From positions 1 through 20,054 of IMG/VR virus record IMGVR_UViG_3300046467_001312: a stretch of DNA of 20,054 nt; one strand, given 5' to 3'. This document shows, piece by piece, positions 1 through 10,553 of the stretch; position 1 is the stretch's first letter, and each line of letters begins with the position of its first letter. The notes beneath the pieces were generated by a model, which had not been told where the DNA came from, did not search any database, and saw only the letters and a program-made list of their open reading frames with translations. The position numbers and the translations under genes are program-made. This stretch comes from a virus.

Positions 1-444
1 ATAACCATCTGTAATTTCTGTTGAACCCCATACATATTTTTCATCTTTAGGTCCCATATATTTTGCTAGGCCTAAAGCTATTTTATCATTTTTACCACTG
101 AATCGAACTGATTCAATCCACTCACTATGATAAGAACCTGGTTTTCTGTTAGGATCTTTAAAAGCAAATATGTGAGTAAGCCCAAAGGATTTAAGTTTAG
201 CAGTTTGTTTTGCTTTAGCATCAAAATTACCTTCTCCCATCCACCAATCTCCGTCAGGTGAAATTCCTCCCTGCTCTTTATTCCACCAATCTGTATATGC
301 TTTGCTTGTAAACCTGTAACCAAAATCAACAGTTGATTTAAATTTACTAGCAGCTGCAAGGAACTTATCCTTATTCCCAAATATCTCAGGATCTACCTTT
401 TTTGCTTCTGTTAATGATTCTCTTATTTGTGTAAATGTTTTCAT
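1..444 (-). CDS. Unknown protein with capsid-targeting-like N-terminus (partial, C-terminus outside window)
   Basis: An open frame of 148 codons runs off the left edge; only the N-terminal part is visible. The ATG at 444 overlaps the stop of the upstream nucleotidyltransferase gene as ATGA, so the two are translationally coupled. The protein begins MKTFTQIRESLTEAKK, very like the T4 internal-protein leader MKTYQEFIAEA, with a gp21-type LTE cut site at residues 11-13. The rest is soluble and rich in Trp and Gly (a DWW segment near residue 60). I do not recognise a family. By position and leader it belongs to the cassette of putative head-packaged proteins. Confidence 0.75.
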   Translation of the reverse strand, partial: MKTFTQIRESLTEAKKVDPEIFGNKDKFLAAASKFKSTVDFGYRFTSKAYTDWWNKEQGGISPDGDWWMGEGNFDAKAKQTAKLKSFGLTHIFAFKDPNRKPGSYHSEWIESVRFSGKNDKIALGLAKYMGPKDEKYVWGSTEITDGY

Positions 445-1508
445 GTGTTATACCTATGTTTTTTCTTTAATATGTTCATAGCGGTAGCTAGCTTATGTGA
501 TTTTGAAGTAAAATCTTTCATATCTAGCTTCATTGCTATTTTTTCCAACTCTATTTTAAGAGCTGGGGTTAATTTAAATTCATCTTTAAGCACAAATTGC
601 CTAAAGTCTAATAATTCTGCTTGACCTGGTGTATCTTCCATGTACTTTTTAGTTAACTCGTAAGTACCAAAATCACCAGCTCCACCTTCCTCTTCTAATT
701 TCTCTACTGAATCTAGCCAGCATCTCTTTCTTATGGTTCCAAATTCTACCAATACGTAGTTCGAACCACAAACCTTAATAGTACCAACTTCATTGTTTTC
801 TTTTAGTACTACTTCATCATCTACTTTGAAAAGATTACCTTGTATATAATCTTCTCTAAGATCAGAAACCTTTTCTAATTGTACGTGTTGCCTGTAATTA
901 TGAGATTCTTTTAATCCCATTCCAGACCTTACGGCATTAAAGAGTCCTTCGACATCTTTAAATCCCTTTGGCATACCCTTAGAAAAACTTTTTAAATCAT
1001 TTTCTGAAGCTGCTGCTCTTAATTTAGAAGCACTCATTCCTGTTACACTATCTGAATCAGGATCACGCGCACCCGCACTAACAACCTTTACTCCATTTTC
1101 AAATTGGTAAAATCCATGTTTACCTTTTTTACCATTATATTTATTTAAAAGCTTATCAAATTCTATAACTCGATCTTCTCCAACCACCATAGTAGCTTGA
1201 ACAAATCCTTGATCATATAAAGCACTAATAACATCAAATGCTGTTCTCATTCCTTTATCAGCCATTATATTTCTGGCATATTTAGGAAACATCTTTCTAA
1301 GATACTTTACCTTTGTTTTAAAATCTAAAGGATTCCTTTTAGCATCTTGTGTATGGGTAGGATATACTCTATATAAACCACCTCTACTAGCCTTTTTAAC
1401 TGCTTCAAATAATTTTTCATGTCCTGTAGTTGGAGGATTAAACCTACCAAATGCAAATGTTATTTCATTAGTATTCTCTACTATATAATCTTTAAATCCT
1501 TTAACCAT
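441..1508 (-). CDS. HxGH-type nucleotidyltransferase with capsid-targeting-like leader
   Basis: This 355-residue protein belongs to the cytidylyltransferase/adenylyltransferase-like superfamily. After a leader MVKGFKDYIVE (IVE is a gp21-type cut site) comes the nucleotide-binding motif GRFNPPTTGH at residues 21-30, then VVGEDRV near 108-114 and SASKLR at 159-164, equivalent to the ISTxxR motif. The catalytic domain covers about 16-200. Residues about 225-272 look like a small SH3/KOW-like barrel, and 280-355 form a helical tail of unknown role. The substrate is not predictable; relatives make NAD, CoA or CDP-linked compounds. An AGGA ribosome site lies in the end of the preceding gene. Catalytic assignment is firm; packaging is inferred. 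Confidence 0.85.
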   Translation of the reverse strand: MVKGFKDYIVENTNEITFAFGRFNPPTTGHEKLFEAVKKASRGGLYRVYPTHTQDAKRNPLDFKTKVKYLRKMFPKYARNIMADKGMRTAFDVISALYDQGFVQATMVVGEDRVIEFDKLLNKYNGKKGKHGFYQFENGVKVVSAGARDPDSDSVTGMSASKLRAAASENDLKSFSKGMPKGFKDVEGLFNAVRSGMGLKESHNYRQHVQLEKVSDLREDYIQGNLFKVDDEVVLKENNEVGTIKVCGSNYVLVEFGTIRKRCWLDSVEKLEEEGGAGDFGTYELTKKYMEDTPGQAELLDFRQFVLKDEFKLTPALKIELEKIAMKLDMKDFTSKSHKLATAMNILKKKHRYNT

Positions 1509-1512
1509 AATA

Positions 1513-1878
1513 TTATCCTGTTTTTGCCTTAAATGCTTTCAATCTTTCTCTTTCTTTAACTTTTATTTTTGGTAAAAGTCTCTTAGCTATTTTTAAAATA
1601 GCCCCTTGCTTCTTAGCAACTCTTTTTTCTAAATCCTGACGAGCAGCATAAGACAAATCTGCCTTACTTTTATCCTTAAGAAGTTTCTTAATAATAAGGC
1701 CACGGGCTTGTTTACGAGATCGCTGTTTAAGCTTTTCGGGGGAGGCGAGTTTTTTTGCTGCTTTCTTCCGGCCTAATTTTATTTTGGCTTTGTTCTTTCT
1801 CATAGCAGCTTTCATTTTCATACGTGTGGCCATTGTTACGGCCTCATCCTGAAAAGAAAACTCTTTAAATGTTTGCAT
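1513..1878 (-). CDS. Small, very basic protein with capsid-targeting-like leader
   Basis: This 121-residue protein is extremely rich in Lys and Arg and predicted to be mostly helical. It begins MQTFKEFSFQDEA, close to the T4 internal-protein leader, though the expected (L/I)xE site is not perfect (QDE). The remainder resembles a DNA- or RNA-binding histone-like tail. T4 internal proteins I-III are also small, basic, head-packaged proteins, so an internal protein is a natural guess. An AGGA ribosome site lies just before the ATG, in the 16-base gap after the ligase-like gene. The function is not known from sequence. Confidence 0.8.
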   Translation of the reverse strand: MQTFKEFSFQDEAVTMATRMKMKAAMRKNKAKIKLGRKKAAKKLASPEKLKQRSRKQARGLIIKKLLKDKSKADLSYAARQDLEKRVAKKQGAILKIAKRLLPKIKVKERERLKAFKAKTG

Positions 1879-1894
1879 TTATCCTTGGTCCCAT

Positions 1895-3133
1895 TTAGCC
1901 TGGATTATCCCAGCCCTTAATAATATCTGCACTGAAATTGTTAGTAGAAAATTCTAATCTATCTACTAGCTTAACAGCTCCACCTTCCATACGATCTATG
2001 GCAACAAAACCTTCATGGTTGGTTACCTTAAACCCGGATTTAGTTTTTACAAAAGTCCCAACATTATTGAGACTGTTTAGTTTATTTATAATAATTAATT
2101 TCGCATCGACGATATAATTTTGTAAATCGAATACATTTTGAAGGTTTTTTAAGTTACTTTTACTAAAAAATGCCATTAATGCTGATTTTTTCGCTTCAAC
2201 ACCAGCTTTTCCTTTGTCTGACTTTAATTTATCAGATTGTTTTGCATATCGTTCTTCTACAAACTTAATTAATCCTAATGCATGTGCTTTAGTATTTGTG
2301 ATACGTACACCTTTTCTAACCATTGTATTATTATATACATTGATGACTAGGTTTAATTCTTTGTTTGATTCTATCTCTTTTAGTACTCCTGCTTTAATCT
2401 TTTGGAACATTTTTCCAGCATTAGAGAGTTGTACTGTGACTTCTTTCGTTTCTTTCGCGCTCATGAGTGCGCCCGCGACGCCCGGGAGGGTTGCATCTTG
2501 CATCCATACATCTTTAGATTTTTTGAGACCTTTAGTTATTTCTCCACCAAAAGAAGCTTTCATACCTTGGAAGTTTGATCCTTTATAAGAAGTATGCCAT
2601 ACTATTCCAACCTTAGATTTAGCTATTTGTTTAGCTAATGGTGTTCCAATAGGGATAGCATATGCAATAGTATTAGGGTGGAATGTCAGATATTTCTGTC
2701 CACCAATCTTTTCTTTCTTAAGATCTCCTCTATCATACATAAAATCTCCTTGAATAACACCGGTTATACCTAAATCCTTTAGGTTATCATATGCTAATCT
2801 AAGTTTTTTGGCCAAATCCCCAGAGGTATCATCATCTATATCATCATGTGATTTATATACCTTTGGATTTTGTGCAAATATACCTTTCTTTGCGACGAAG
2901 AATTCTCCATCGCTCGGATCGATACCCGCGAATACGGCGGGAGCACCGTCCCATTTAACAGTGACGTCGACTGCAGTGGGTGATTCTCCAGCAAGCATGT
3001 CCCTTAGTGATCGTAGGGCTAATATTGCTTGTCTGGCTCCCTTAACTCCTCCATCCAGTACTAAGTCCTCAATATGAGTCATATGAGTGTTTTTAGCTTC
3101 TGTGATGTGGTTAAATTGGTTTAATCTTTTCAT
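1895..3133 (-). CDS. Ligase/nucleotidyltransferase-superfamily-like protein with capsid-targeting-like leader
   Basis: This 412-residue protein resembles phage proteins annotated DUF6267 (recalled, not searched). The leader MKRLNQFNHITEA contains an ITE cut site (10-12). The sequence carries what look like motifs of the covalent nucleotidyltransferase fold shared by DNA/RNA ligases and capping enzymes: motif I KWDG at 60-63, a motif III-like QGDFMYD at 128-134, motif IV EGFV at 374-377 and motif V VKLVDR at 387-392. A helical insert separates III and IV. RNA or DNA ligation, or adenylylation of another target, are possible. It starts with an ATGA overlap on the upstream 67-residue gene. Two GC-rich patches (2450-2492, 2893-2975) interrupt the AT-rich codon use. 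Confidence 0.8.
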   Translation of the reverse strand: MKRLNQFNHITEAKNTHMTHIEDLVLDGGVKGARQAILALRSLRDMLAGESPTAVDVTVKWDGAPAVFAGIDPSDGEFFVAKKGIFAQNPKVYKSHDDIDDDTSGDLAKKLRLAYDNLKDLGITGVIQGDFMYDRGDLKKEKIGGQKYLTFHPNTIAYAIPIGTPLAKQIAKSKVGIVWHTSYKGSNFQGMKASFGGEITKGLKKSKDVWMQDATLPGVAGALMSAKETKEVTVQLSNAGKMFQKIKAGVLKEIESNKELNLVINVYNNTMVRKGVRITNTKAHALGLIKFVEERYAKQSDKLKSDKGKAGVEAKKSALMAFFSKSNLKNLQNVFDLQNYIVDAKLIIINKLNSLNNVGTFVKTKSGFKVTNHEGFVAIDRMEGGAVKLVDRLEFSTNNFSADIIKGWDNPG

Positions 3134-3333
3134 TTTTTTCCGTACTTTTTCTTATCCCCTGGGATTCTATATTTCATTAATGGTTTCCCATTGATTGATA
3201 TATCACCATTGTCGTTTCTGGATATGGTTTTTACTACGATTGGTTTGTTTTTAAATTTACCGCCTAACACAGTATCACCGACATTAATTTTGACTTTAAT
3301 ATCATCTTTTAAAAAGTGTATAAATGAAATCAT
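3130..3333 (-). CDS. Small basic beta-rich protein, phage-conserved type
   Basis: A 67-residue protein, probably a small beta barrel (VGDTVLGGKFKNKPIVVKTI pattern) with a Lys-rich tail. I recognise the type from T4-like marine phages but know no function. Its start MISFIHFLKDD resembles the leaders of its neighbours but lacks a clear (L/I)xE site. It is coupled by ATGA overlaps on both sides, so it sits in one translational unit with the neighbouring cassette genes. Confidence 0.75.
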   Translation of the reverse strand: MISFIHFLKDDIKVKINVGDTVLGGKFKNKPIVVKTISRNDNGDISINGKPLMKYRIPGDKKKYGKK

Positions 3334-4790
3334 TTCCCTACCTTAATATATGTACTAGAATCTAGCATATTAGATCCTGCATAATTAACAAAGTGCGTTA
3401 TAATAGCATTAGATCTTTTTCCACCAGCATTATCTAAAAAATAACAAACATATAAGGATGCTAATTTAGCTGAATACCAATCTTCGGGTTTTCTTTCTCT
3501 ATCATATATCATTTGCATGTCTTTTAAAAAATCCCCGTAGGTTTCATTAGGATAAAAATAATTATACATTTTCCAAAAGTGTTTTAACTCACCTAAAGGT
3601 TTAGGAGTTTTAGAATCTTTTTGAAGTTTAAGTTTTTTCTTTATATCGGCTGCTTGTTTTTTAACTCCACCTCCATGTTTAGGAAAAGTCTTACCAACTT
3701 CTCTTTTAACAAACTCCTGCATTTCTCCCCAACCAATACCTCCACCTCTTGCTGATTTACCATCAATCTCTGCTCTATTAGCTCCGCCTGGTGAAGGATC
3801 TCTAAGAGACATAGATCCACCATCGTATTTTAATGTAGATCCTTTTCTTGACCAAAATGTTCCTCTACCTGATTTGGTAGCTTGAAGTTCTACACCTAAA
3901 TATTTATAATCCTCTGTATCAGGTGGAATAACATTATTAAATTCTTTGTTATAAGGATTTTCTTTTTTTACAGGACCTTTAAGAGATATAGCAACTAACT
4001 TTCTAGTATTAAAATGTTCCATTATATCTTTATTAAACGTTTGTACAGAAGAAGTATCTAAGTTTTTTAGAATATTAAATCCCTTTTCTACAGCCCATAC
4101 ATCTCCTGGATTCCACTTATCATTATTTAGTGGTTTAAATCCATTATTTTTATAAGCTTGGTTTTTCAATGTATATACTAAAGTCATGGCAGGTCCACCA
4201 CGATCAAAGATTTGATTCTTATTAATATAACCATTCTCAACTAACCATTTACTTATATAATAAGAACTAGCAACCCAAGCTTCAGGAGATTCTAGAATTT
4301 TATCTGTATTAACATCCACATTATTTTTACCATTATCTTTGAATGCTTGAGCTATACGCGCTTCATCAAAATGTTCTAAATCATAACCTGATCCATCATC
4401 AGCCATGGCTTTCATCATACAAGCATTATGGCTTTCGTTTCTAGCAGTATCATGAGTACCAGATCCAGAACCTCCTCCACCACCAAATACTGCAGATTTA
4501 CCTAAATCATTAGACTTATATTCTTTTCCATCTGCAGCTATAAGAGGAAACCCACTTTTACCATAATGGTTGGGGTTTTTTTCGAAATTTTTGATGTGAT
4601 CTAATGCAGAGTCAATATCTGCAACAATCATTGTACCACCTTTAGCTAGTTCTAAAGGTTCTTTTTGTTTGATAAGTCGTGCGAGTATATCAATTCTAGG
4701 TTCTTTTGTTTTAGAATTGAGTTTATCCAGCTGGCCAGGAGTTAGTTTTATTAACCCCTCTGTGATATTTTTGAAATGTTTAAAACGCAT
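3330..4790 (-). CDS. Large cassette protein with capsid-targeting-like leader, possible PD-(D/E)xK-like fold
   Basis: A 486-residue protein of unknown function and the first gene of the putative head-packaged cassette. It begins MRFKHFKNITEG, with an ITE site at 9-11. A Gly/Ser-rich linker at 103-111 separates an N-terminal part from the main domain. The pattern E119, G229-D230-V-W, S269-L-K271 is weakly reminiscent of PD-(D/E)xK nucleases, with Ser where Asp/Glu is usual; this is a guess. The C-terminal third is aromatic-rich. A GGGA ribosome site precedes the ATG, and a late-promoter-like CATAAATA lies about 37 bases upstream. No membrane segment is seen. Confidence 0.8.
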   Translation of the reverse strand: MRFKHFKNITEGLIKLTPGQLDKLNSKTKEPRIDILARLIKQKEPLELAKGGTMIVADIDSALDHIKNFEKNPNHYGKSGFPLIAADGKEYKSNDLGKSAVFGGGGGSGSGTHDTARNESHNACMMKAMADDGSGYDLEHFDEARIAQAFKDNGKNNVDVNTDKILESPEAWVASSYYISKWLVENGYINKNQIFDRGGPAMTLVYTLKNQAYKNNGFKPLNNDKWNPGDVWAVEKGFNILKNLDTSSVQTFNKDIMEHFNTRKLVAISLKGPVKKENPYNKEFNNVIPPDTEDYKYLGVELQATKSGRGTFWSRKGSTLKYDGGSMSLRDPSPGGANRAEIDGKSARGGGIGWGEMQEFVKREVGKTFPKHGGGVKKQAADIKKKLKLQKDSKTPKPLGELKHFWKMYNYFYPNETYGDFLKDMQMIYDRERKPEDWYSAKLASLYVCYFLDNAGGKRSNAIITHFVNYAGSNMLDSSTYIKVGK

Positions 4791-5067: not shown

Positions 5068-5188
5068 CACCTAATTCTGCATTGGTATTGAATTTAATAT
5101 CCTTGTCTTTTTCTTTTAATTCAGCTATTCGATCCCTTCTTTCTTTATCAGTCTGGAAAGTTTCGAATGCTTTATAAGATTTAGTCAT
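5021..5188 (-). CDS. Small charged protein overlapping the ligase end
   Basis: A 55-residue frame beginning MTKSYKAFETFQTDKERRDR, mostly helical and charged. The ATG lies inside the last codons of the DNA ligase gene, preceded by GGAG at about six bases, which is a good ribosome site. Its 3' end overlaps the start of the membrane-protein gene. Without it, 5071-5180 would be an unexplained gap in an otherwise packed operon. The family is not recognised. Confidence 0.6.
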   Translation of the reverse strand: MTKSYKAFETFQTDKERRDRIAELKEKDKDIKFNTNAELGDEFQSVYVLEYTIVT

Positions 5189-6281
5189 CTCGGTCTCCTA
5201 TTCCCCAGTCAATTACAACTGGAAATCTTGGTATACCATCTGGGGTTTTTTCAAAGTATCGAACCGTAACCCAGGTAGGTTGTTCTTCTTGTTCTAGAAG
5301 TTCTTTTAATATCTCTTGTGTTCCTCTTACACCACTTTTGAAGTTTCTTCCATCACCTAATTCTAATTCAAAATGTTTGGCGTATCCTGCCCAAGTACCT
5401 GCACCTTCTAGTACACTTACCACATCAAATTCCTCGGTAATAAATTCTTTACGTTTGAGTAGATTTTTACTTCTCTTATTTTCATAAGGAGTATTGTTTC
5501 TAATCATTTGACCTTCATATCCATCTTTGGTATATTCAGAATAAAGTGAATCTAAATCTTCTTGTGCTGCACATGTGTTTGTTTTAACAATATGAATAGC
5601 ATCATTAGGTTCTACTGCCAAATTAAATCTTTCTAAAAATAAAGCACCTGGCTTATCCGGATCAAATAAATCATATACATGATATTGAACCAATTCTTTA
5701 GACTCTATCAAATCTGCCCCTGTAGGTTTTGTTTTACGAACTAAAGAAGTAATTTTATTAAAGTCATTTTTTAATTCATGGTTATATAACTCACCATCTA
5801 GGATAACATTAGGAAAAGCTTCAAAAAAGTCTTTGAGTTCTTCTGCTATATGAGGAACTGAAACTAATTCTTTTCCTGCTCTGCTATATAATCCATCTTT
5901 TCTGGCAACACATCTGATACCATCTAATTTAGGTTGAGATATACCTTCGCTCTGATGCCTTTTCGCATAATCGTGAGCTAACATGGGTTTAAACTTATCA
6001 TATTTGTCAACATCTTCTTCAAGTTCAAAATATTCTTTAGCTAAATAGAGTTTCCATTTAGACTCAGCTTCTTTATGAGCTTGTTCAAAAGATGTAGTAG
6101 CATTTTTCTTGCCAAAGTTTTTACCGAAAGATTCATTCCATCCGGATTTAACAAGTTTGCCATTTTTAATACCAGAAACAGTTCTTATTCCTGGGTTAAC
6201 TGGTCCACTGTATTCAACAGTCCATTCACGGATATTTCCGCTTGTGTCTCTTTTGTAGAGTGTTGGTAAAGGATATATCAT
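5181..6281 (-). CDS. ATP-dependent DNA ligase
   Basis: A 366-residue ligase that seals DNA nicks through an enzyme-adenylate. The adenylated lysine is K118 in motif I QPKLDGIR (116-123). Motif III (VILDGELYN), motif IV (EGQMIR) and motif V (LLKRKEF) follow in order, then an OB-fold-like C-terminus. Residues 1-85 resemble the WGR-like N-terminal domain common in phage ligases. It is shorter than T4 gp30. The start overlaps the stop of the 3'-phosphatase gene by one base (TAATG), so end-healing and end-sealing proteins are made together. Confidence 0.95.
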   Translation of the reverse strand: MIYPLPTLYKRDTSGNIREWTVEYSGPVNPGIRTVSGIKNGKLVKSGWNESFGKNFGKKNATTSFEQAHKEAESKWKLYLAKEYFELEEDVDKYDKFKPMLAHDYAKRHQSEGISQPKLDGIRCVARKDGLYSRAGKELVSVPHIAEELKDFFEAFPNVILDGELYNHELKNDFNKITSLVRKTKPTGADLIESKELVQYHVYDLFDPDKPGALFLERFNLAVEPNDAIHIVKTNTCAAQEDLDSLYSEYTKDGYEGQMIRNNTPYENKRSKNLLKRKEFITEEFDVVSVLEGAGTWAGYAKHFELELGDGRNFKSGVRGTQEILKELLEQEEQPTWVTVRYFEKTPDGIPRFPVVIDWGIGDRDD

Positions 6282-7596: not shown

Positions 7597-7776
7597 TTAT
7601 TCTGCTTTTACTAAAGTGTAGACACCATAAGCTAGTCCGGCCCATGCGAGCCATTTAGCTAATCCGCCTAAGAGAATTACAGAGCCGCAAACAACTACAA
7701 TAGTTGTTCCGTCCCAGGTAGTTCTTTCAGCAACTCGAGCTTTCACCCAGTCCACTGCTGTATTTAGATAATTCAT
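7597..7776 (-). CDS. Small membrane protein, last gene before terminator
   Basis: A 59-residue protein beginning MNYLNTAVDWVKARVAERT. An amphipathic N-terminus is followed by a hydrophobic stretch at about residues 25-56 with Gly and Trp residues, probably one or two membrane spans. A GAGGA ribosome site lies six bases before the ATG. I recall similar small proteins in marine T4-like phages, without known function. A holin-like or host-membrane role is possible but not shown. Confidence 0.75.
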   Translation of the reverse strand: MNYLNTAVDWVKARVAERTTWDGTTIVVVCGSVILLGGLAKWLAWAGLAYGVYTLVKAE

Positions 7777-7791
7777 ACTATTTCCTCTGGT

Positions 7792-9195
7792 TTAGATTTT
7801 AAATTCAGCATAAGGATCACGTTGTTCTCCCTCCCCAAATTTATTGATTGCTTTATCATTCGACACAACTGTATCAGACATTATATCTGTTTGTGCCGAT
7901 TCTTCTACATCGTAAAGTTTCATGCGGGAACGATCTATACCAACTACAAAACGCTTGTATTTAGTTGGATCGTTATAACGATTTTTTAATTGCTTTACCA
8001 GCAATTGACCAAGATCATCAAGCTCCTCTGTGCTAATAAGAGCAAACATGAGATCTGCCGTAGCCGGTAGACCAAATGATTCCGAAGTGTCCTCTAATCC
8101 TACATCAGTATTTGAATAACCAGATCTAGTCGTTTGCGTTGCACTCACGATCGGGACATTAAATTCAACCGCTAAACCCCTTAATTCTTCCGCTATAGAT
8201 TTAACGTATGAGTAAGTATTTATACTTCCCCCAAGCCCACGCATCCGCGAGGACGCGCATATATTGATATAATCAACATAAATTATATGAGGTATGAAGT
8301 TCTTTTTTAACTTTAATTCGTTTAATAAAGCTCTGAAGTGTCCCGTATGGGCTGCGCCCGTAGGATACTCTTTAACTATAAGTTTCCCTATAGAGTTCTT
8401 CGCTATTCTTTGGATCTTATTATCGAATACATTTTTTGGAAGTGTTTCCAATTGTTGTATAGGTAGATCCATAAGGTTAGCATCGATTCTTTCTGCTATT
8501 CTTTCTTCAGCCATTTCCATGGTAATATAAAGAACATTTTTTCCTAATTCAAGATTAGCTGCTGCAGTATGGCACATAAAAAGAGATTTACCTACACCTG
8601 TACCTGCCATACATATGTTTAAGGTTTTATTTGGTAAACCACCTTTTGTAATTTTGTTAAAGTAATCTAAGTCCCATGGGATTCTAGATTCTTTTGAATT
8701 ATAAAATTCAAATCTTTCTTCAGAATTGTCAATATAGTCATGGCCAATATTAGGATCAAAATTAACCCCTAGGGCTTTTTGTAATATATCTGGTATAGCT
8801 TCTTCAGATTGCTCTCCTTTACCATCTATGATTTGTATAGATTCCATGATTGCAATATATACAGCACGATCCCTACACCACTTTTCTGTTTCTATGACTA
8901 AGTATTCTTGTTCAACATCGCTTTTAGATTTACATTCATTAATACATTCTGATACATTAATTCTAGTCTCATCTGGGAGTTGAACTTTTTTAAGTTCTAA
9001 TTCTAATATTTTAGAGGTAGGCATTTTGTTATGTTTATTAACAAAGTCTACAACAAGATCAAATACCACACTATGTGGTTGTTCAAAGTAATCCGGCTTT
9101 AGATAAGGTATTACTCTACGTAAATACTCCTCATCATTTATTAGATGACTAAGTACGTGTGTTTGTATTTGTGTTGTTATGTCCAATTTTTCCAA
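7792..9195 (-). CDS. 41: Replicative DNA helicase, gp41/DnaB type
   Basis: A 467-residue RecA-fold hexameric helicase that unwinds DNA at the phage replication fork, partner of a primase. Walker A is AGTGVGKS at about 197-204, Walker B lies in IIYVDYIN near 307-314, and SATQTTRSGY near 350 matches the DnaB-family H4 region. The N-terminal 150 residues form the helical primase-interaction domain. Translation appears to start at a TTG (9195) after an AGGA site, since no ATG is placed to give the family N-terminus; a second TTG at 9186 is possible. It overlaps the upstream gene by 47 bases. Confidence 0.93.
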   Translation of the reverse strand: MEKLDITTQIQTHVLSHLINDEEYLRRVIPYLKPDYFEQPHSVVFDLVVDFVNKHNKMPTSKILELELKKVQLPDETRINVSECINECKSKSDVEQEYLVIETEKWCRDRAVYIAIMESIQIIDGKGEQSEEAIPDILQKALGVNFDPNIGHDYIDNSEERFEFYNSKESRIPWDLDYFNKITKGGLPNKTLNICMAGTGVGKSLFMCHTAAANLELGKNVLYITMEMAEERIAERIDANLMDLPIQQLETLPKNVFDNKIQRIAKNSIGKLIVKEYPTGAAHTGHFRALLNELKLKKNFIPHIIYVDYINICASSRMRGLGGSINTYSYVKSIAEELRGLAVEFNVPIVSATQTTRSGYSNTDVGLEDTSESFGLPATADLMFALISTEELDDLGQLLVKQLKNRYNDPTKYKRFVVGIDRSRMKLYDVEESAQTDIMSDTVVSNDKAINKFGEGEQRDPYAEFKI

Positions 9196-9508
9196 TCACT
9201 TTTCCTGTGTCTAGTGATTCTTCCATTATATTTTGAAGGATTCCGCCGATATAGTTTCTAAAATCTATATCTCCGATTAATTCTGATTCTTCGAATTGTC
9301 CTGCTTCCTGTATATCATAGGTAAATGCAAGAGTTGCAATATCTAGTTCTGGGCTCTCTTTTATCGAGACCTTCCCATATATGTATAACACATCTTTCCA
9401 TTTACCTGTAAGTAATTTAACCCCATAAAATTCTATATCATTAGATTCTACTAATTGATAATCAGCATTAGTAATGATTGATTCACCGGGTGATTCAAAT
9501 TCACTCAT
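9149..9508 (-). CDS. Conserved T4-like hypothetical between uvsX and helicase
   Basis: A 119-residue protein with a beta-rich core (YGVKLLTGKWKDVLYIYGKV), a helical C-terminal third and a low-complexity Asn/Thr tail. I recall proteins of this kind in the same slot between uvsX and the helicase in marine T4-like phages; the function is unknown. It starts inside the last codons of uvsX (8-base overlap) and runs 47 bases into the helicase gene. The Asn/Thr repeat tail is encoded in that overlap. Confidence 0.8.
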   Translation of the reverse strand: MSEFESPGESIITNADYQLVESNDIEFYGVKLLTGKWKDVLYIYGKVSIKESPELDIATLAFTYDIQEAGQFEESELIGDIDFRNYIGGILQNIMEESLDTGKVIGKIGHNNTNTNTRT

Positions 9509-10553
9509 TTTCTATATCCAGTTCTATATTATCTAGTAATGGCTTATGCCCTATTTGATAATGACCTTTGACAAAATCTTTGAAATCTGTTTCATCAAAT
9601 ATTGGCGCCCAAAAAGATTCTGAAAGCGTGTCTTTCTCTCTAACTTTTGGATCGACCAGTTCTCCAGTATCTTTATCAACCCTGCAGTACCAACCAATAG
9701 AAGGCTTAGCAACATAGTTACCAGCAAGAGCGACATCCAGTAAACCACTGTAACGCTCAATGCCACCTTCCCAGCTGACAGATATAGGAATTTTTGACTT
9801 TTCTCTAACAAATCTCGATTTTTCGACGTTGATGACAAAATTATATCCTCTTATTTCTGTTCCCACTTTCTTTTGTTGTCTTCCGATAATCCATATATTG
9901 TCGGCAGAATAATAAATACCCGTACCTCCGGAAACAATTGCTTTTGGAAACAATCCTATCTCTTGATAGGTATGATTAACTGCTAAAAGGGAAATATTTT
10001 TCATGGTTAAATATGGTGTGACCATTCTAAACAATCCTTTTAACGCTTTGGCTCTTGTCATATCAGCTACAGATTTTTCATTAAGTGTATCATCTAGCTC
10101 TTTCTTTGAAGCTAGATTACCAATTGAATCTATAACAATTATAACATGATCTCCTCTTTCCAGACTTTCTAGTTGATTAACTATATCGAACTTTAATTGT
10201 TCTACATCTGTAATTGGAGTGTGTAATACTCTCGATACATCAATATCGAATGATTCAAAGAATTTTTGGGGTGCTCCAAATTCTGAATCATAAAATAATA
10301 ACACTGCATCATCATACTTCTTTAAGTAATCTCTTGCTATAAGAAGAGCAAATGATGTTTTAAAATGCTTACTCGGTCCTGCTAGGACAGTAAGCCCTGG
10401 AGCTAAACCCCCATCTAGGTTTCCAGATAAAGCTGCGTTTATCATTGGAACTGATGTTGATACAATCTCTTGATCTTTAAAGAATATTGATTCAGATAAA
10501 ACTGCTGTAGTTTTAATCTTGCTATTCTTTTTAAGTTTATCCATTATTCCCAT
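9501..10553 (-). CDS. uvsX: UvsX recombinase (RecA-like)
   Basis: A 350-residue strand-exchange protein that drives recombination-dependent replication and repair in T4-like phages. The Walker A motif GPSKHFKTS (59-67) is the UvsX form, close to T4 GPSKSFKS. Walker B lies in VIIVIDSIGN, and NHTYQEIGLF followed by VSGGTGIYYS matches loop 2. The start ATG overlaps the bS21 stop by one base (TAATG), preceded by GGGAGG at seven bases. The acidic C-terminus (NIELDIENE) is typical of RecA-like proteins. Confidence 0.95.
   Translation of the reverse strand: MGIMDKLKKNSKIKTTAVLSESIFFKDQEIVSTSVPMINAALSGNLDGGLAPGLTVLAGPSKHFKTSFALLIARDYLKKYDDAVLLFYDSEFGAPQKFFESFDIDVSRVLHTPITDVEQLKFDIVNQLESLERGDHVIIVIDSIGNLASKKELDDTLNEKSVADMTRAKALKGLFRMVTPYLTMKNISLLAVNHTYQEIGLFPKAIVSGGTGIYYSADNIWIIGRQQKKVGTEIRGYNFVINVEKSRFVREKSKIPISVSWEGGIERYSGLLDVALAGNYVAKPSIGWYCRVDKDTGELVDPKVREKDTLSESFWAPIFDETDFKDFVKGHYQIGHKPLLDNIELDIENE

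Follow-up and report, generated by a model that had tools for sequence, protein, structure and literature searches.

The nearest functional precedent for the locus described here, a cassette of six consecutive genes at positions 1-4790 of the viral record IMGVR_UViG_3300046467_001312, is provided by the internal proteins of phage T4 (Ip1-3, or IPI, IPII, and IPIII), which have only an N-terminal leader in common and block restriction enzymes (PMC12373910). The cassette resembles them in its leaders (MKTYQEFIAE followed by A in T4), with a length of 10-13 residues and, in most members, an aromatic pair spaced three apart and an (L/I)xE-like end, and in its basic mature proteins, which are unrelated cargos with the leader alone in common. 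Unlike the T4 set, it has six consecutive members, of which several are large and enzyme-like, and in relatives it sits between the replication genes gp41 and gp61, in phages that infect marine bacteria. Within the T4 leader, residues 4 and 7 serve targeting and residues 8 and 10 processing, and D at position 10 blocks cleavage while targeting is kept (PMC9026906). We propose, with a probability of about 0.8, that the six genes form a T4-type capsid-targeting cassette with enzyme-like cargo, the cargo operon of a Kyanoviridae-like marine myophage.

Other described systems resemble the locus in part. The T4 ADP-ribosyltransferase Alt is an enzyme that is carried in the head, processed by gp21, and delivered into the host, as the cassette proteins would be; however, the enzyme families differ, and Alt has a shorter N-terminal propeptide together with a second, C-terminal one. 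The T4-GC190 cytidylyltransferase/NMNAT-like virion proteins of phages S-SM1, S-SCSM1, S-SZBM1, and S-CREM2 share both family and locus with a cassette member; the leader is present in the first three, whereas the papers on these phages report presence in the virion and neither a targeting leader nor a cassette. Injection is likewise predicted for the polyvalent proteins that phages and conjugative elements encode, enzymes directed at conflict with the host (Iyer et al., 2017). They are single large multidomain proteins, whereas the cassette consists of separate proteins, each bearing a leader, although one profile, phrog_455, joins DUF6267 and the cytidylyltransferase. In the literature searched (most subscription journals lay outside the search), no earlier report linking the leader to these proteins was found.

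Six Genes with a Common N-Terminal Leader

The record is 20,054 bases long, below the size of a full T4-type genome, and is contained completely in the window, that is, the whole stretch of DNA analyzed. The six open reading frames (ORFs) and the N termini quoted in the initial annotation were found where it had placed them, on the minus strand, tightly packed and partly overlapping (4-base overlaps at 441-444, 3130-3133, and 3330-3333). The genes, with their profile assignments, and the leaders, some with the leader score introduced below, are as follows.

3330-4790, minus strand: 486-amino-acid protein, phrog_1462 family, in the slot upstream of DUF6267; leader MRFKHFKNITE followed by G
4758-4790, minus strand: leader of the 486-amino-acid protein, MRFKHFKNITE; leader score 18.5
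3130-3333, minus strand: 67-amino-acid basic protein, unmatched by profiles, isoelectric point (pI) 10.1; starts MISFIHFLKDD, keeping the hydrophobic pair, with D where T4 has E
1895-3133, minus strand: DUF6267 protein (PF19782), a putative RNA-ligase-like nucleotidyltransferase; leader MKRLNQFNHITE followed by A
3098-3133, minus strand: leader of the DUF6267 protein, MKRLNQFNHITE; the Pfam domain begins at residue 15
1513-1878, minus strand: very basic 121-amino-acid protein, pI 11.1 whole and 11.5 minus the leader; leader MQTFKEFSFQDE followed by A
1843-1878, minus strand: leader of the 121-amino-acid protein, MQTFKEFSFQDE; hydrophobic pair matches, cleavage site degenerate (QDE)
441-1508, minus strand: cytidylyltransferase/NMNAT-like protein, phrog_395, the T4-GC190 family of cyanophages; leader MVKGFKDYIVE followed by N
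1476-1508, minus strand: leader of the cytidylyltransferase, MVKGFKDYIVE; leader score 18.0
1-444, minus strand: N-terminal 148 amino acids of a protein of unknown function, the gene being cut by the window end; leader MKTFTQIRESLTE followed by A
406-444, minus strand: leader of the truncated gene, MKTFTQIRESLTE; leader score 12.3

All six proteins are basic, and all six starts fit the consensus M(1-4)-[F/L]-x-x-[F/Y/I], in which a hydrophobic pair three residues apart, beginning at positions 3-5, is usually followed by (L/I)xE to complete a leader of 10-13 residues. The pair is strictly aromatic in four leaders and L/F and F/I in the remaining two. Three leaders end in LTE or ITE and one in IVE, so that the cleavage-like sites reported earlier for four of the six are indeed present; the other two end in QDE and LKD. 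The possibility that the leader is part of a folded domain was rejected, as it lies outside the Pfam domain and has low confidence in AlphaFold2 models (predicted local distance difference test, pLDDT, about 48 for the leader of the 486-amino-acid protein and below 50 for residues 1-16 of DUF6267).

The Leader Is Modular and Clusters around DUF6267

Three cassette proteins served to retrieve related viral contigs, from which we derived first a regular expression and later a two-block leader score. When the same leader was sought among the phage's other genes, as the initial annotation had suggested, the cassette took ranks 1-5 and 8 of the 32 genes in the window (Mann-Whitney p = 4e-6), with homologs from other contigs included in the training set. 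The score is partly circular, since the training leaders were picked by pattern; fairer tests are held-out families, a null drawn from internal Met positions, T4, and S-SM1. When each family in turn was excluded from training, the median score exceeded 7 in 20 of 120 protein families from the related contigs, against null values of 3.9 at 95% and 9.5 at 99%.

In these contigs, a dozen or more unrelated proteins bear the leader, and some homologs are without it. Examples from unrelated families include MYGFKEYITE followed by A, MKRFSTFIYE followed by A, MKDFKGFLITE followed by S, MLSFKRFLME followed by G, and, on a Zeta_toxin/AAA_33-type kinase, MNSVDNFKQHFDLME followed by G. Judged from such sequences, the leader is modular, being common to otherwise unrelated proteins. 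Leader-bearing genes make up 2-5% at positions -10 to -5 relative to DUF6267, climb through 14, 14, and 41% to 67% at position -1, reach 99% at DUF6267 itself, and then fall through 89, 69, 55, 48, 33, and 32% to 0-12% by +8 to +12. The residue after the cut (P1'), a column left free by the leader pattern, follows the order A>G>E,D>S, and 19 of 21 leader-bearing families have a pI above 9, against a median of 6.9. Codons for the E residue are used as they are elsewhere in the genes, and those for F are only slightly shifted, so the constraint on the leader looks to be at the protein level.

The motif is short, and about 1-2% of internal Met positions satisfy less strict patterns, as would be expected if the shared N termini reflected chance or a generic phage protein start. 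The sharp clustering on the cassette and the results with held-out families, T4, and S-SM1 led us to reject that explanation, which is almost certainly wrong.

Leader-like starts were also seen elsewhere. In C48C1, the annotated start of the cytidylyltransferase (21607-23016) omits the leader, and the frame opens MIKNFSQYLLEEE. An 821-amino-acid kinase-like protein of S-CRM01 (7673-10138; weak Pkinase/APH match) starts MISFDQFLSEK. Away from the cassette, a RimK-like ATP-grasp protein of phage Melnitz (82-1131) starts MTQKFSQFITEE and is possibly another packaged enzyme.

Virion Proteins of Relatives and Comparison with T4

Purified S-SM1 virions contain the T4-GC190 cytidylyltransferase (PMC3037559), which starts MKKFSAFLNE followed by A and has the top leader score of 215 ORFs. 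The cytidylyltransferase was also detected in S-SZBM1 virions (PMC9146016), where its leader is MRFRQFIIE followed by A (gene numbers were paired with sequences by length, so the match is an inferred one), and, together with its neighbors, in S-CREM2 virions (PMC10665884). ORFs 89, 90, 91, 92, 93, 95, and 97 of S-SCSM1 are annotated as virion proteins (PMC9602691); ORF 91 starts MKSFLQFLKE followed by A, and ORF 89 starts MDSKTFNSLSE followed by A. From the virion data of these four phages we conclude that the locus supplies virion proteins, some of which are marked by the leader. The S-SCSM1 virion protein ORF93 (DUF3008; 8627-8836) has a leader-like sequence, RTFKEFLEYIE, at its C terminus.

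The position of the relatives' cassette between two replication genes could instead point to a different kind of signal, directing proteins to the membrane or replisome, tagging them for degradation, or acting in translation. This is very improbable, given that leader-bearing orthologs are present in purified virions, that the LxE site matches gp21, and that codon use suggests a protein-level constraint. A gp21-type protease was found in all five complete relatives tested, and LxE directly precedes the mature part of gp23 in 7/7 phages tested.

A score trained only on the marine contigs and run on T4 placed gp22, IPII, and IPIII near the top. The top T4 scores, above IPII and IPIII, went to two frames. 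One, which we take to be uvsW.1 (NC_000866, 114210-114440, plus strand), lies within the annotated uvsW frame and reads MLLEFKQFLYE followed by A, MLLEFKQFLYEA; the other, 61.1 (NC_000866, 18966-19130, minus strand), starts MKTFKEFIKED and adjoins gp61, the locus of the marine cassette. Both may be unrecognized head proteins.

Probable Enzyme-like Cargo

Invariant residues of DUF6267 (K60-x-D-G, G129-D130, E374-G, and K388) occur in the order expected of ligase-type nucleotidyltransferases. Its AlphaFold2 model has a pLDDT of 85 and a predicted template modeling score of 0.82. No significant match came from PDB sequence or fold searches, nor did profile comparison link DUF6267 to phage DNA ligase; in a search of viral models, RNA ligases were the highest-placed annotated matches from beyond its own family (best E 4.4e-3, probability 0.97, low TM-score). 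From the motifs and weak fold matches, we somewhat favor an RNA-ligase-like nucleotidyltransferase. The cytidylyltransferase matches phrog_395 at E = 8.5e-69 and Pfam CTP_transf_like at E = 0.0017, a match that falls short of the curated cut-off, and keeps GRFNPPTTGH, in line with the conserved HxGH-type motif GRFNPPxxGH. The 486-amino-acid protein has invariant DKWNPGD..WA and ISLK motifs and gave no fold, Pfam, or PDB sequence match in PDB and Pfam searches; its motifs are compatible with a PD-(D/E)xK-type nuclease, a possible assignment. The enzyme-like character claimed earlier for the passengers thus holds for the cytidylyltransferase and, by motif and weak fold matches, for DUF6267, and is a suggestion for the 486-amino-acid protein. 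The statement that they are not merely small basic proteins applies to the set and not to every member, because two of the six are small and basic.

Prohead targeting could be real and the proteins could nevertheless serve head assembly, core formation, or DNA condensation rather than act as host effectors. All six are basic, the protease that trims the T4 internal proteins also processes that phage's core proteins gp22, gp67, and gp68 (PMC9026906), and head-protein genes adjoin the cassette in cyanophages. Against such a role, the leader-bearing proteins include some with conserved nucleotidyltransferase motifs, a kinase of the Zeta-toxin/AAA_33 type, and an ATP-grasp protein resembling RimK. 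The slot upstream of DUF6267 also speaks against it: across contigs it is held by differing, unrelated families, many of which bear the leader, whereas an assembly part would be expected to stay fixed. We consider an assembly function unlikely.

Besides the cassette, the window encodes, on sequence reading, a DNA polymerase C terminus and UvsX-like, gp41-like helicase, and thymidylate synthase-like genes; these and the relatives identify the source as a T4-type, Kyanoviridae-like marine phage. Homologs in host genome contigs are mostly from metagenome bins, and the single isolate locus examined (Nonlabens) is surrounded by phage genes for DNA polymerase, UvsX, and gp41. There, the protein upstream of a leaderless DUF6267 (5169-5948) has a PD-(D/E)xK nuclease-like D..EL...FELKEK sequence and is without a leader.

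Discussion

The T4-type capsid targeting put forward in the initial annotation is well supported by the likeness to T4 leaders, modularity, gp21 and (L/I)xE sites in relatives, basic cargo, and virion mass spectrometry of leader-bearing orthologs. Several observations weigh against it. The canonical cut site is absent from two of the six leaders: MQTFKEFSFQDEA has no L/I at -3, and in MISFIHFLKDD D replaces E, although the latter, the start of the 67-amino-acid protein, would fit the uncut T4 case with D at position 10. Genes for gp21 and head proteins were not found in the 20-kb window. Cyanophage DUF6267 is often without a leader (S-SM1, Syn9, S-SZBM1, and S-CRM01) and is not listed for the S-SZBM1 virion (PMC9146016). 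S-SCSM1 virion ORFs 90, 92, and 93 have no clear leader, so the leader is not the sole route into the virion, and, as the authors of the S-SCSM1 study point out, carried-over protein can turn up in mass spectrometry of virions (PMC9602691). In T4, the score also flagged gp17 and 57B, probably falsely, and missed IPI.

Homology and the mass spectrometry published for relatives give good support to packaging and trimming; cleavage in the source phage, injection, and each enzymatic role we infer, the injection and effector action by analogy with T4. The hydrophobic pair of the leader would bind the prohead core, as in T4, and a gp21-type protease would cut after the leader E; the basic proteins, once trimmed, would stay beside the DNA in the head and pass into the host along with it. 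The cargo would comprise DUF6267 (RNA-ligase-like), the NMNAT/cytidylyltransferase-like enzyme, a larger, possibly nuclease-like protein in the swapped slot, and small basic proteins. Their likeliest role would be to supply preformed enzymes in the opening minutes of infection, with repair of cut RNA or DNA, nicotinamide adenine dinucleotide (NAD) or nucleotide repair, and counter-defense as candidate tasks; on the T4 precedent, injection with a role in repair or counter-defense is plausible.

More tentatively, and with rather less than even confidence, marine T4-type phages may own a modular loading platform by which any leader-bearing protein is packed, trimmed, and injected, delivering before phage gene expression a kit for nucleic-acid and NAD repair or counter-defense (RNA-ligase-like DUF6267, the NMNAT-like enzyme, a Zeta/PNK-like kinase, and an exchangeable nuclease-like slot). 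Phages of the T4 type rank with the most abundant in the ocean and carry many genes of no known function. The leader offers a simple sequence rule predicting which uncharacterized proteins travel in the virion, may explain the recurrence of NMNAT/cytidylyltransferase-like proteins in the virion proteomes of cyanophages, and draws attention to a cargo slot with exchangeable content that is likely shaped by host defense.
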